Source of the DNA: Aquabacterium commune
Lineage (GTDB): Bacteria > Pseudomonadota > Gammaproteobacteria > Burkholderiales > Burkholderiaceae_C
NCBI RefSeq assembly: GCF_004362855.1
Contig: NZ_SNXW01000006.1
Span: 62,001-126,000 of the forward strand
Direction of reading: 5' to 3'
Length of the DNA: 64,000 nucleotides
The notes under the pieces are model-generated. The model was not told where the DNA came from, searched no databases, and worked only from the letters and a program-made list of their open reading frames with translations. Position numbers and translations under genes: made by a program. This document shows, piece after piece, positions 45,543 to 57,464 of the stretch; within the stretch, counting starts at the first letter, position 1, and the number at the start of each line of letters is the position of its first letter.

Positions 45543-47636
45543 TCAACCGTCTGCCGCGCCAGGCCCCCTGGTTTCTTGGTGCCACAAGGCTTGAGACAGG
45601 CGATCGGTGGCCATGCGGAGTTGGTAGCGGTAGGTCCCGAAGGGCAGTCCTAGCCGCTCGGCAGCGAGTTCTTGCGAGCCTGCGGGGCGCCAGTAGGTCA
45701 GCTCGATGGTTTTGAGGAACTTGGCGTGGCGCGGGTGATTCGCCAGATGGTCGCCTGCGGCAGTGATCAGTCTGCGCAAGGTGGTGACGACCTCCTCGGC
45801 TGGCAGCCTGGCCGCTTGAACCAGACCGCTCTGTAGCAACGGGTTGCGACCCAGCTCGACTGGGTCTCGCCACCGCTTCAGCGCTTCTTGGACGGCCTCT
45901 TTGAAGCGCTGCTCGCTCAGCACCTGCACCGTCAGGCCGGTCTCGGTGGTGGGCCTGGATTGACCCACCGGCATCTGGCTGGCACCCAGCATGTTGAGCC
46001 ACAAGTTCATGGGCACCGCCCGCCAGTCGTGTGCGAAGGTGCCGTGGTGTTGACCGTCCATGTCGATGCCCTTGGGCTCGATCAGGTGGAAGTCGATGTG
46101 ACTCATCATCGGCGCCCAGTGGTCAGGGTCCTTGTTGCACAGGGCGAACAAAGCCAGCGCGGGCTCGGTCATCCACATCAGGAAGGTGCGGGTCTGCAGT
46201 GCGTTGATGTAGATCCCGTCGTTGGCCACGCCGTTGCGGGTCACGGCCATTCGGGAGCACAGCACCCGTTCGCCCGTGCGAAGCGCGGGTTGCCGTGTGA
46301 CCCAGTCGAGCAATTGGGTCAGCATCGGGTCGCCGCAAACGTCTTGCGCAGACATGGCGTTGAGCTCCAGCAGCAGCATCGCGGTCATGGTGCGTCCGCT
46401 GGGGTCGCGCACAACCCACCAGCTTGCAGCGGGGTGATCGTGCCAGCGTCGCATCAGCGCTTCGTGCTCGCTTCCCAACTCCTGCAGGACCAGCTCGGCA
46501 ATCACCGGCATGTCTTGGGGGTGCGCCCGATCGCAATGCACCGAGCCCAGCGCAGGGAAGTCGATGAAGGCTTGCATGACGGGGTGGCCGCGGTTCAGGT
46601 AAACGATGTCCAGCGCCGCCCTTTGACGCAGAGCCGGGCCGCCGCTGTGCACATGTTGCACATGGTGCTTGAGCAATCGCTCACTGATTTGCAACAGCTT
46701 CTGTGGGTTGCGCCAGCGCATCTCTGCAGTGATTGCATCGCGCACGAGGTCGTGCGGAAAGAGCCCGTCGGGCGCTGTCTCCATGAAACTGAGTGAGGTG
46801 AGCCACTCGAACAAGTCGGCCGCAAGAACGGGGTCCACCACGTCGGCCAGCAGGCCCTCGGTGGTGACGCGGGCCAGTGCAGACAGCTCCAGGGCCTCAC
46901 GGTGCAGCGCGGAGGGGGTCTGGGAGGCGAAGCAGTCTGTCAGCTTGCGGATGAGGTCGGTGTCCAGCGCATCAGGCACCTCGCCCTTGACCTTGACCAG
47001 ATCGGCCAGGAGCATCATGGCCAGGGGGTGCCCATGGCTGAGTTTGATGATGGCTTGCCTTTGAGCCGGGGGCAGTTCTCTGGCGATGAGGGCCTGCTCG
47101 CACGCGGGCACAGGCAGGTTGCGAAGGCCGATCACGTGGCTGCCGTGTCGCCAGATGGGGTCGGTGAGCCAGAGGTCGTTGGGGGCATCGCGTCCGGCCA
47201 GGATGGCCAAGCTTTGCTGCGGCAACTCTGCGAGCACCCGATCCCGCAGCCACAGACTCAGGTGGTGGAGGTGCTCGAAGGTGTCGATGACGAGCAGACG
47301 CCTGGGTTGGCGTCGCCAGCCTTGCAAGATGAGCTCAAGCTGCGCCTGCTCGGCGCCCAGCCCCAGGTGCGAAGCCAGCCCTTGCAACACGCCATAGATC
47401 GAGGGCTCGATGCTGCGACCATCGAGCCGCAACACCGACAACCCCGCTTGATGCGCCATCTCTTGCATCTGCTCCACCAGGGCGGTTTTGCCGATGCCCC
47501 CCGGCCCATGCACCAGGAAAACGCTCGCCTGGGGCACCTCATCTGCCAGGCTTCGCTGAAAACGCTGCAGTTCGCCTTCGCGGCCGAAAAAGCAGGCCTG
47601 GCTGCGTTGGCGAAGGCGATCAACGATGCGAACCAT
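45543..47636 (-). CDS. STAND-type ATPase, possible regulator
   Basis: 697 aa from the ATG at 47636; the longer open frame is antisense to thrS. N-terminal NTPase: FFGREGELQRFQRSL, Walker A VFLVHGPGGIGKTALVEQM (about 40-58), Walker B-like RRLLVIDTFEHLHHL and the sensor LAILAGRDAPNDLW, all as in AAA/STAND signalling ATPases. The middle (about 330-600) contains no repeat I can name; EALMRRWHDHPAASWWVV resembles a small sensory fold. The C-terminus AAERLGLPFGTYRYQLRMAT looks like a helix-turn-helix, so a transcription regulator is plausible. Targets might be the esterase downstream. No characterised relative is recognised. Confidence 0.65.
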   Translation of the reverse strand: MVRIVDRLRQRSQACFFGREGELQRFQRSLADEVPQASVFLVHGPGGIGKTALVEQMQEMAHQAGLSVLRLDGRSIEPSIYGVLQGLASHLGLGAEQAQLELILQGWRRQPRRLLVIDTFEHLHHLSLWLRDRVLAELPQQSLAILAGRDAPNDLWLTDPIWRHGSHVIGLRNLPVPACEQALIARELPPAQRQAIIKLSHGHPLAMMLLADLVKVKGEVPDALDTDLIRKLTDCFASQTPSALHREALELSALARVTTEGLLADVVDPVLAADLFEWLTSLSFMETAPDGLFPHDLVRDAITAEMRWRNPQKLLQISERLLKHHVQHVHSGGPALRQRAALDIVYLNRGHPVMQAFIDFPALGSVHCDRAHPQDMPVIAELVLQELGSEHEALMRRWHDHPAASWWVVRDPSGRTMTAMLLLELNAMSAQDVCGDPMLTQLLDWVTRQPALRTGERVLCSRMAVTRNGVANDGIYINALQTRTFLMWMTEPALALFALCNKDPDHWAPMMSHIDFHLIEPKGIDMDGQHHGTFAHDWRAVPMNLWLNMLGASQMPVGQSRPTTETGLTVQVLSEQRFKEAVQEALKRWRDPVELGRNPLLQSGLVQAARLPAEEVVTTLRRLITAAGDHLANHPRHAKFLKTIELTYWRPAGSQELAAERLGLPFGTYRYQLRMATDRLSQALWHQETRGPGAADG

Positions 47637-47822
47637 GTCGGGGCGGTGAAAAATGAGGATCGAAGTTACCAGGCTCGCGGTCGTTGTCTCGACCCCGCAA
47701 CCCGGTGTCGCTGAGCACCGACCGCAGGCTGTGGGCTGCGGGATAGAATAGTAGAGAAGTGCAAATTGGCTCAAAGTGATTCCACTCAGGCAAGGTAAGA
47801 ACTGAGAAAGGCACGCACGGTT

Positions 47823-47870
47823 ATGACACCGCGAACTCCGACCACCACCCGCACCTCGACCGAGGTGTAG
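47823..47870 (+). CDS. Threonine-rich leader peptide of thrS (candidate)
   Basis: A 15-codon ORF reads MTPRTPTTTRTSTEV and stops at TAG (47868-47870). Seven of 15 codons are Thr, including three in a row. It starts 183 bp before the thrS ATG with AAAGG about 12 nt upstream. It is followed by an antiterminator strand and a terminator in the order expected for ribosome-mediated attenuation: shortage of Thr-tRNA would stall ribosomes at these codons and let thrS be transcribed. The Thr content cannot be chance easily, but translation is not shown. Confidence 0.7.
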   Translation: MTPRTPTTTRTSTEV

Positions 47871-47939
47871 CCGGCCGCACGCTGCTTCGCATTCCTGACC
47901 TTGACTCACCAGAAAGCGCGGCGCCCCCCGCGCTTTTTT
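47852..47939 (+). promoter_or_regulatory. thrS attenuator: leader hairpin, antiterminator strand, terminator
   Basis: CACCTC (47852-47857) pairs with GAGGTG (47862-47867) inside the leader ORF. GGCCGC-AC-GCT (47873-47883) can pair with AGCGCGG-CG-CC at 47915-47925, which would use up the 5' arm of the terminator. The terminator is AAAGCGCGG (47913-47921), loop CGCCCC, CCGCGCTTT (47928-47936) and six T. A ribosome at the leader stop would cover 47873-47883 and favour termination; one stalled on the Thr codons would leave it free. Confidence 0.7.
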
Positions 47940-48005: not shown

Positions 48006-49925
48006 ATGATCTCCATCCAGTTGCCCGACGGCTCCAAACGTGAATTCCCTGGCCCCGTGACGGTGGCCGAAGTCGCCGCCTCCATCGGCACGGGCCTGGC
48101 CAAGGCCGCACTCGCTGGCCGTGTGGGGCAGGGCGATGCCGCTCGCCTGGTCGATACCGCTTACCGCATCGAGGCCGATGCGCAACTCGCCATCGTCACG
48201 GAGAAGGACGCCGACGGCCTGGATGTCATCCGCCACTCCACCGCCCACTTGCTGGCCTACGCGGTCAAGGAGCTCTTCCCCGAGGCGCAGGTCACCATCG
48301 GCCCGACCATCGAAGACGGCTTCTATTACGACTTCGCCTACAAACGCCCCTTCACCCCCGAAGACCTGGCTGCCATCGAAAAGAAGATGACCGAGCTGGC
48401 CAAGAAGGACGAGAAGGTCGAGCGCCGCGTGCTGCCGCGCGACGAGGCCGTGGCCTACTTCAAGGGCCTGGGCGAGCACTACAAGGCCGAGATCATCGAA
48501 AGCATCCCGGCCGATCAGGACGTGTCGCTCTACAGCGAAGGCGCTTTCACCGACCTGTGCCGCGGCCCGCACGTGCCCAGCACCGGCAAGCTCAAGCACT
48601 TCAAGCTGATGAAAGTGGCCGGTGCCTACTGGCGTGGCGACCACCGCAACGAGCAGCTGCAGCGCGTCTATGGCACCGCCTGGACCACCAAAGACGACCT
48701 GGCCGCCTACCTGACCCGCCTGGAAGAAGCCGAGAAGCGCGACCACCGCAAGCTGGGTCGCGAGCTCGATTTGTTCCACATCGACGACCACGCACCGGGC
48801 GTCGTCTTCTGGCACCCCAAGGGCTGGGCCGTGTGGCAGGCCGTGGAGCAGTACATGCGCCAGGTTTATCGAGACAACGGCTACCAGGAAGTCAAGGGCC
48901 CGCAGATCATCGACAAGACGCTGTGGGAAAAAACCGGCCACTGGGACAAGTACCGCGAGAACATGTTCACCACCGAGTCGGAGAAGCGCGACTACGCGCT
49001 CAAGCCGATGAACTGCCCCGGCCACATCCTGATCTTCAACCAGGGCCTCAAGAGCTACCGCGACCTGCCGCTGCGCTTCGGTGAGTTCGGCCAGTGCCAC
49101 CGCAACGAGCCCTCAGGTGGCCTGCACGGCATCATGCGCGTGCGCGGTTTCACGCAGGACGACGGCCACGTCTTCTGCACCGAAGACCAGATCCTGCAGG
49201 AGTGCGTGGACTTCACCGCGCTGTTGCAAAAGGTCTATGCCGACTTCGGCTTCACCGACATCATCTACAAGGTGGCCACGCGCCCCGAAAAGCGCATCGG
49301 TGCCGACGAGGTCTGGGACAAGGCCGAGCAGGCCCTGATGGAGAGCCTGCGCGCCACGGGCAGCGAGTTCACCATCGCGGTGGGAGACGGCGCCTTCTAC
49401 GGCCCCAAGATCGAGTACACGCTGAAAGACGCCCTGGGTCGCCATTGGCAGTGCGGCACGATCCAGGTGGACTTCTCCATGCCCGAGCGCCTGGGCGCCG
49501 AGTACGTGACCGAGACCAGCGGCCGCAAACACCCTGTGATGCTGCACCGCGCCATCCTGGGCAGCCTGGAGCGTTTCATCGGCATCCTGATCGAGCAGCA
49601 CGCGGGCGCCTTGCCCGTCTGGTTGGCGCCAACGCAGGTCGTGGTGATGAACATCACCGACGGACAGGCCGATTGCGCCTCTGAAATTGCGAAATCTCTG
49701 CAGAAGCAAGGCTTGAAGGTGCAGTTGGATTTGCGCAACGAAAAGATCACGTATAAAATCCGCGAGCATTCGTTGCAGAAGGTGCCCTACTTCCTCGTTG
49801 TCGGAGACAAGGAGAAGTTGGATGGCACCGTCGCCGTGCGCGCCCGGGGCAACCAGAACCTCGGCGTGATGTCGCTCGATGACTTCTCCCAGAAGATCTC
49901 TCAAGACATCGCCAGCAAGGCCTGA
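48006..49925 (+). CDS. thrS: Threonyl-tRNA synthetase
   Basis: 639 aa from the ATG at 48006; an open frame upstream overlaps the terminator and is not coding. TGS domain about 1-62 ([20 protein letters not shown]). Editing domain with [11 protein letters not shown] (H-x-x-x-H zinc/editing motif) and [13 protein letters not shown]. Catalytic class II core: [10 protein letters not shown] (zinc Cys), [20 protein letters not shown] (motif 2), and [18 protein letters not shown] (motif 3), then the anticodon-binding domain. It charges tRNA-Thr and is the usual first gene of the infC-rpmI-rplT block. Likely regulated by attenuation through a Thr-rich leader. Confidence 0.98.

Positions 49926-57386: not shown

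Positions 57387-57464
<78 letters not shown>

Follow-up and report, generated by a model that had tools for sequence, protein, structure and literature searches.

A candidate threonine-codon leader-peptide attenuator of thrS in Aquabacterium and other Betaproteobacteria

In E. coli, threonyl-tRNA synthetase (ThrRS) binds its own mRNA and represses translation of thrS by anticodon mimicry, and in Bacillus thrS is under T-box control. Leaders with Thr codons are known from E. coli, where one controls thrABC, and the pheST genes of the same organism provide a case of leader-peptide attenuation of a synthetase gene, with Phe codons in the leader. For thrS itself, the leader thrL of Streptomyces lividans TK24, with 18 residues and two Thr, is listed as an attenuator; its transcript is given without a 5' leader and the authors call termination unclear (PMC8079986). 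The same table includes leaders of alaS, leuS, and trpS, one of them with a single Trp (PMC8079986). In Rhodobacterales, cysS is preceded by the uORFC-8-2 motif, a predicted leader-peptide attenuator with 145 examples (PMC8632094). Our literature search, with most subscription journals outside its scope and priority accordingly unproved, found no leader-peptide attenuator of thrS for Betaproteobacteria. A first-pass annotation of the DNA analyzed here had remarked that a leader-peptide attenuator for thrS in betaproteobacteria is not a textbook case; this holds for Betaproteobacteria as searched, but thrL is listed for S. lividans.

The window is a stretch of 64,000 nucleotides from Aquabacterium commune (contig NZ_SNXW01000006.1), and its relevant features are collected in Table 1. 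The Thr-rich ORF that the first-pass annotation had reported upstream of thrS is confirmed in the sequence, with Thr at 7 of 15 codons (codons 2, 5, 7, 8, 9, 11, and 13), and the hairpin that it had placed inside the ORF is predicted as well. Its perfect terminator with six T is almost that: the stem has 11 pairs closing a 6-nt loop (47911-47938), with T at 47934-47939, but one of the pairs is G.U. The locus thus combines an ORF whose clustered codons match the downstream gene with a terminator between ORF and gene, as in known attenuators. The ORFs 3' of thrS encode IF3, L35, L20, and PheS, and a scan with the sigma-70 consensus found no promoter-like site. The 117-nt leader stretch (47823-47939) folds better than 197 of 200 shuffles; the fold of a longer stretch is not outstanding (z = -1.35; 19 of 200 shuffles as good). 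The decisive evidence that the arrangement exceeds chance is comparative.

Table 1. Features of the thrS leader region and its neighbors in the window
Feature	Position	Strand	Basis
Upstream ORF, AAA/STAND-type NTPase matches, divergent	45543..47636	-	Domain matches; start chosen by us
GAGAAAGG, likely Shine-Dalgarno sequence of the leader ORF	47804..47811	+	Sequence; GAAAGG kept in relatives
CGGT-TATGAC-ACCG, possible hairpin with start codon in loop	47818..47831	+	Predicted leader fold
Leader peptide ORF MTPRTPTTTRTSTEV (ATG 47823-47825, TAG 47868-47870)	47823..47870	+	Sequence; frame and Thr codons conserved in relatives
CGA-ACT, conserved Arg-Thr anchor, codons 4-5	47832..47837	+	Strict anchor in 121/223 loci
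Hairpin at end of leader ORF	47851..47868	+	Predicted fold
Strand 2, antiterminator-capable, starting 3 nt past the stop codon	47873..47887	+	Predicted duplex with terminator 5' arm
Intrinsic terminator (strands 3 and 4) with six T	47911..47939	+	Sequence and relatives
thrS, threonyl-tRNA synthetase, presumed controlled gene	48006..49925	+	P0001; Pfam TGS, tRNA_SAD, tRNA-synt_2b, HGTP_anticodon

To follow the leader in relatives we used 223 betaproteobacterial thrS upstream regions: 35 from the genus, 79 named, and 109 from a sample of the order covering 40 families. The genus set represents 35 of 42 genomes, the remainder being without a thrS match or a usable start. The named set is 79 of the best 80 of 583 confirmed matches, one locus without a thrS start (L059) having been dropped, and the order set consists of 109 loci chosen by us from 150 listed, 216 genomes having had a match. 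Two paralogues (L002 and L003) were excluded. Leaders were called by a strict anchor, namely a start codon, 1 to 5 codons, and then CGA followed by ACT or ACG in frame, within an ORF of 5 to 26 codons. This anchor, picked after the data had been seen and with false calls bounded at about 4% by dinucleotide shuffles, calls a leader in 121 of the 223 regions, compared with 3 to 8 in each of ten dinucleotide-shuffled sets. By set, the calls amount to 33/35 in the genus, 46/79 among the named loci, and 42/109 in the order sample, where 19 of the 40 families are represented; a terminator stands behind 119 of the 121 called leaders.

The remaining 102 regions are without a strict leader. A looser anchor is found in 160 of the 223 regions versus 59 to 73 in shuffles, and M-x-P-[PL]-T variants, all of which the strict rule misses, are visible by eye in three families (f22; f3, in L134 and L139; and f9, in L126). 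Of 399 genomes of the order, 51 carry a single exact copy of the 17-mer GTTATGACACCGCGAAC, and none carries the reversed control; in the 22 of those 51 genomes for which the place of thrS was listed, it lies 100 to 196 nt upstream of the gene. Among 276 genomes drawn across the class, one, a member of the order, has a related pattern that ends in NAC and that does not match the window. The strict leader was absent from all 29 thrS loci examined from the class outside the order, these being the best-scoring of 57 genomes.

Some loci appear to have lost the leader. Two of the 35 genus loci keep the terminator without a Thr leader: L021 encodes MTPQKHLARGLVDCPLSCVLCL, with its single Thr at codon 2, and in L223 a stop follows after three codons. 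The first-pass annotation had named, as refuting its reading, a leader not conserved in relatives or Thr codons replaced freely beside a kept terminator; these two loci answer in part to that description. In L040, ATA stands in place of the start codon and Ile in place of Thr5, and four loci from Limnohabitans and similar MAGs (L041, L043, L048, and L049) have a terminator 37 to 41 nt upstream of thrS with no leader ORF called. All seven look like leader losses, but they too answer in part to the refuting condition of the first-pass annotation.

The Thr codons are enriched in one reading frame only. In the genus, Thr accounts for 138 of 329 in-frame codons after the anchor (42%), versus 2 of 296 in each of the other two frames; outside the genus the corresponding values are 148/718 (21%) versus 14/631 and 31/631. 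Overall, the Thr share in nonleader frames is 0.7 to 4.9%, and Thr makes up 4.1% of codons in 79 thrS genes. Furthermore, 32 of 33 genus leaders keep the MTPRT start and the EV end in one frame while ranging in length from 13 to 16 codons. Because the Thr enrichment is frame specific, and because MTPRT and EV share a frame despite the changes in length, selection acts on the Thr codons as codons. Thr codons are few in 25 of 87 nongenus leaders (5 with one and 20 with two).

We next consider strand 2, whose pairing was scored as the duplex energy between the stretch from stop codon to terminator and the terminator 5' arm plus loop; two loci were excluded (L042 and L112, the latter probably a false leader call). 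In the window, strand 2 and the terminator 5' arm form a predicted duplex of -16.2 kcal/mol, similar to the -15.6 kcal/mol of the terminator stem. The first-pass annotation's claim that a strand at 47873-47883 can pair with this arm therefore stands as to energy, but 17 of 60 shuffles do as well, so that the antiterminator of the window is no better than shuffled sequence. All but two of the 33 genus leaders have a strand 2:3 pairing better than 57 or more of 60 shuffles (31 of 33), the exceptions being L226 and the window itself. Of the 86 other leaders, 27 pass this test and 59 fail it. The antiterminator is thus evident in the relatives as a group, and the window copy alone does not pass.

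A leader's own terminator pairs better with its strand 2 than foreign terminators do, by -1.89 kcal/mol after double centring over 82 distinct leaders (one of them from the genus), a value reached in 0 of 20,000 permutations, and by -2.04 kcal/mol over 41 lineages that we picked, one leader each (0 of 50,000 permutations); the own pair has no advantage in 10 of the 41. Compensatory changes are visible in the pairs themselves: UCGAGG:CCUCGA in Burkholderia-like leaders, UCAAGG:CCUUG in Ralstonia, and UCGAGG:CCUUG in Cupriavidus. Massilia-like leaders have GCUAGUCG:CGGCUAGU, in which UAG is the leader stop codon in L070, L071, and L124. The strand takes the form CGGCUGGU in L071 and L124, and the related leaders L080 and L144 have GCUAGACGCG (GCUAGaCGCG) with the terminator changed to CGCGCCUGGU. 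In 101 of 119 leaders, strand 2 starts no later than position +6 relative to the stop codon, versus 57 expected under a uniform placement, suggesting that a ribosome at the stop codon would cover strand 2 at least partly.

A classic pairing of the ORF (strand 1) with strand 2 is weakly supported by these sequences. The same cross-pairing test gave no signal across lineages for the ORF and strand 2 (7,316 of 20,000 permutations as good), leaving strand 1:2 pairing unsupported as a general rule. GTTCG, the complement of the CGAAC anchor, occurs in strand 2 of 10 of 41 lineages (mean in shuffles, 3.5), above all 200 shuffles; it is the sole one of five motifs tried to do so, and plain TTCG occurs in 16 lineages versus a mean of 12.9. 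Strand 1:2 pairing is at most a weak lead.

Ribosome states were modeled crudely: a 30-nt footprint was masked, the RNA was folded as far as the terminator loop, and the measure was the mean share of the 5' terminator arm engaged by strand 2. For the Thr state, the ribosome was placed on the earliest Thr codon at or after codon 4. A mask that covers strand 2 necessarily reduces its pairing. With a mask reaching +12, the share outside the genus is 0.20 with the ribosome at the stop codon, 0.29 with no ribosome, and 0.54 with the ribosome at Thr; in the genus it is 0.49, 0.75, and 0.81, respectively. The Thr state exceeds the stop state in 73/86 nongenus and 27/33 genus leaders with this mask, in 69 to 75 of 86 and 29 to 30 of 33 with masks of +15 to +21, and in 66/86 but only 3/33 with a mask of +9, so that the stop-versus-Thr contrast in the model depends on footprint length. 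In the window itself, a mask of +12 gives 0.78 at the stop codon versus 0.69 at Thr5, and the states separate only with masks of at least +18 (0.37 at stop versus 0.53 at Thr with +18; 0.17 versus 0.82 with +21); by this model the window copy is a poor example of the switch. The first-pass annotation had proposed that a ribosome at the stop codon masks the antiterminator strand and that stalling at Thr frees it. The model reproduces this in most leaders with a mask of +12, but not in the genus at +9 or in the window below +18. Once transcription has completed the terminator, this structure prevails on average whatever the state modeled (mean share, 0.72 to 0.93; 0.95 in the window), and the decision would therefore have to be kinetic.

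The start of the leader is conserved beyond its peptide. Of 90 M-x-P-R-T leaders, irrespective of codon usage, 87 have ACA as codon 2, 90 have CCG as codon 3, 89 have CGA as codon 4, and 82 have GGTT before the ATG. In the 79 thrS genes, by contrast, ACA and CGA are rare, at 5.6% of Thr and 4.1% of Arg codons, respectively. Conservation of MTPRT as a peptide only was rejected, since the synonymous sites are frozen. Of 89 strict M-x-P-R-T leaders, 79 have GAAAGG in the 26 nt that precede the start codon. At 47818-47831 of the window, a small hairpin is predicted to hold the start codon in its loop, and its nucleotides are nearly invariant in Burkholderiales-type leaders. All four pairs of the corresponding YGGU-UAUGNN-ACCG hairpin are possible in 74 of 121 leaders, but no compensatory change was seen in its inner three pairs in those 74, and we therefore treat it as a lead rather than a result.

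This frozen start bears on an alternative in which control works mainly by way of leader translation, or of a trans-acting factor (ThrRS, an sRNA, or another protein) bound to the nearly invariant GGTTATGACACCGCGAAC core, and the Thr codons play a lesser part. The synonymous constraint, the possible placement of the start codon in a hairpin loop, and the leaders with one or two Thr codons would all suit it. Nevertheless, GGTTATGACACCG is lost in outer families where Arg-Thr is kept, the Thr enrichment past the core is frame specific, and the anticodon-like hairpin of other class members is absent apart from one chance-like match in 223 regions; we regard this alternative as unlikely. Autorepression by ThrRS through an anticodon-mimic operator, as in E. 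coli, is very improbable here, although a pattern for an anticodon-loop-like hairpin, which we built from the same 29 class loci and which resembles the E. coli ThrRS operator, matches 14 of those 29 (among L230-L254), with GTA in the loop and 13 matches no more than about 60 nt from the thrS start, mostly 30 to 60 nt upstream, and five more of these loci resemble it by eye. Neither the window region nor 222 of the 223 betaproteobacterial regions contain that pattern, the sole match being L110, which also has the leader. A looser version matches 18/29 class and 7/223 betaproteobacterial loci, but its matches include tRNA arms and antiterminators, and none of the seven looks like an operator by eye. 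A T-box for tRNA-Thr (RF00230), the device of Bacillus thrS, has a negligible probability: Rfam gave no match at an E value of ≤1 in the 45- to 53-kb part of the window and no T-box at ≤0.1 in 12 relatives. No Rfam family covers the leader in the window or these relatives, and the Thr_leader model (RF00506) likewise had no covariance match in either at the same respective thresholds. The non-tRNA Rfam matches in the 12 relatives are four to RF02194 and one to RF02621, all opposite to the thrS strand and below gathering scores; those to HPnc0260 (RF02194) lie in L210, L203, L208, and L214, over or beside the tRNA-Val region.

A different objection is that the terminator merely ends an upstream unit, which in many outer families is a tRNA-Val gene, that thrS has its own promoter, and that the ORF is incidental. 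In 40 of 50 loci that we chose for scanning, tRNA-Val(GAC) does lie upstream of thrS, with one more called as tRNA-Ile; in some lineages (e.g., L187) tRNA, terminator, and thrS follow each other with no leader between, and the Limnohabitans-type loci keep a terminator without a leader. The tRNA-Val(GAC) gene precedes the leader or thrS in, for example, L070, L086, L203, L208, and L214. Yet the only tRNA gene in the window is tRNA-Pro at 57388, the upstream ORF with domain matches is divergent, and neither the Thr frame bias nor the strand 2-terminator coevolution is expected of a plain terminator, making this explanation improbable. Given these tRNA genes, the terminator of a tRNA gene may be where the attenuator arose. 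Because the leader of L208 starts about 20 nt past the tRNA end, transcription from the tRNA promoter may extend into thrS there.

Our preferred reading, to which we assign a probability of about 0.8, is that a ribosome-mediated transcription attenuator controls thrS. The frame-specific Thr codons and the strand 2-terminator coevolution support this reading, which was also that of the first-pass annotation, and they emerge from the alignment across relatives that it had named as a check. With ample charged Thr-tRNA, the ribosome would translate the leader up to the stop codon and cover strand 2 just behind it, so that the terminator would form and transcription would end before thrS. With charged Thr-tRNA scarce, the ribosome would wait at the upstream Thr codons, strand 2, left uncovered, could pair with the terminator at its 5' arm and loop, and RNA polymerase would read into thrS and perhaps into the genes behind it. 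The analysis shows the parts of this device, that they are conserved, and that strand 2 coevolves with the terminator; leader translation, stalling at Thr codons, read-through, downstream cotranscription, and the physiological signal are what we infer from them. On the comparative evidence, the leader is real and conserved and is probably a leader-peptide attenuator. Data from B. cenocepacia, where 82 short 5' untranslated regions from processing or attenuation are reported and two tRNA-synthetase genes are named by locus tag only, may hold an experimental trace of it (PMC5688073).

The operator pattern and the leader are nearly exclusive of each other, which suggests a change of control logic. 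It is possible, but doubtful, that Betaproteobacteria swapped a ThrRS operator common in the rest of the class for an attenuator grown in a tRNA-Val terminator, and that the Burkholderiales leader added the frozen start-codon hairpin (GGTTATGACACCG) as a second control, of initiation. If attenuation holds, many betaproteobacterial families would control ThrRS by ribosome stalling rather than by ThrRS binding its own mRNA. Sister lineages would then clearly differ in the regulatory logic of a single essential gene, which must have switched between them. Considered alongside the leader of Streptomyces thrS, this would also point to more than one origin of such leaders. A response to ThrRS inhibitors and to threonine starvation is predicted and can be tested.

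Like the trp, his, and thr attenuators of E. coli, the locus has a codon-rich leader ORF, mutually exclusive antiterminator and terminator structures, and a downstream gene for the same amino acid. It differs from them in that an aminoacyl-tRNA synthetase rather than biosynthesis would be controlled, in that the strand 1:2 protector is not clearly supported, and in that the antiterminator strand starts at the stop codon or overlaps it. Thr_leader (RF00506) is a Thr-codon leader too, but it controls thrABC and has no match here, and the E. coli thrS operator acts on the same gene but by translational repression, its pattern being absent here. E. coli pheST is a precedent for a synthetase gene, with other codons, another gene, and another clade. 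S. lividans thrL is likewise a short Thr-codon leader peptide before thrS, although it is actinobacterial and its peptide is unrelated to MTPRT by eye (PMC8079986). Both uORFC-8-2 and the present leader are predicted leader-peptide attenuators of a synthetase gene, the former with Cys codons at positions 14 and 15 in Alphaproteobacteria, the latter with Thr codons in Betaproteobacteria (PMC8632094). Judged by these comparisons, the putative thrS switch is a further case of a known attenuator class, for which our search showed no earlier thrS example in Betaproteobacteria.
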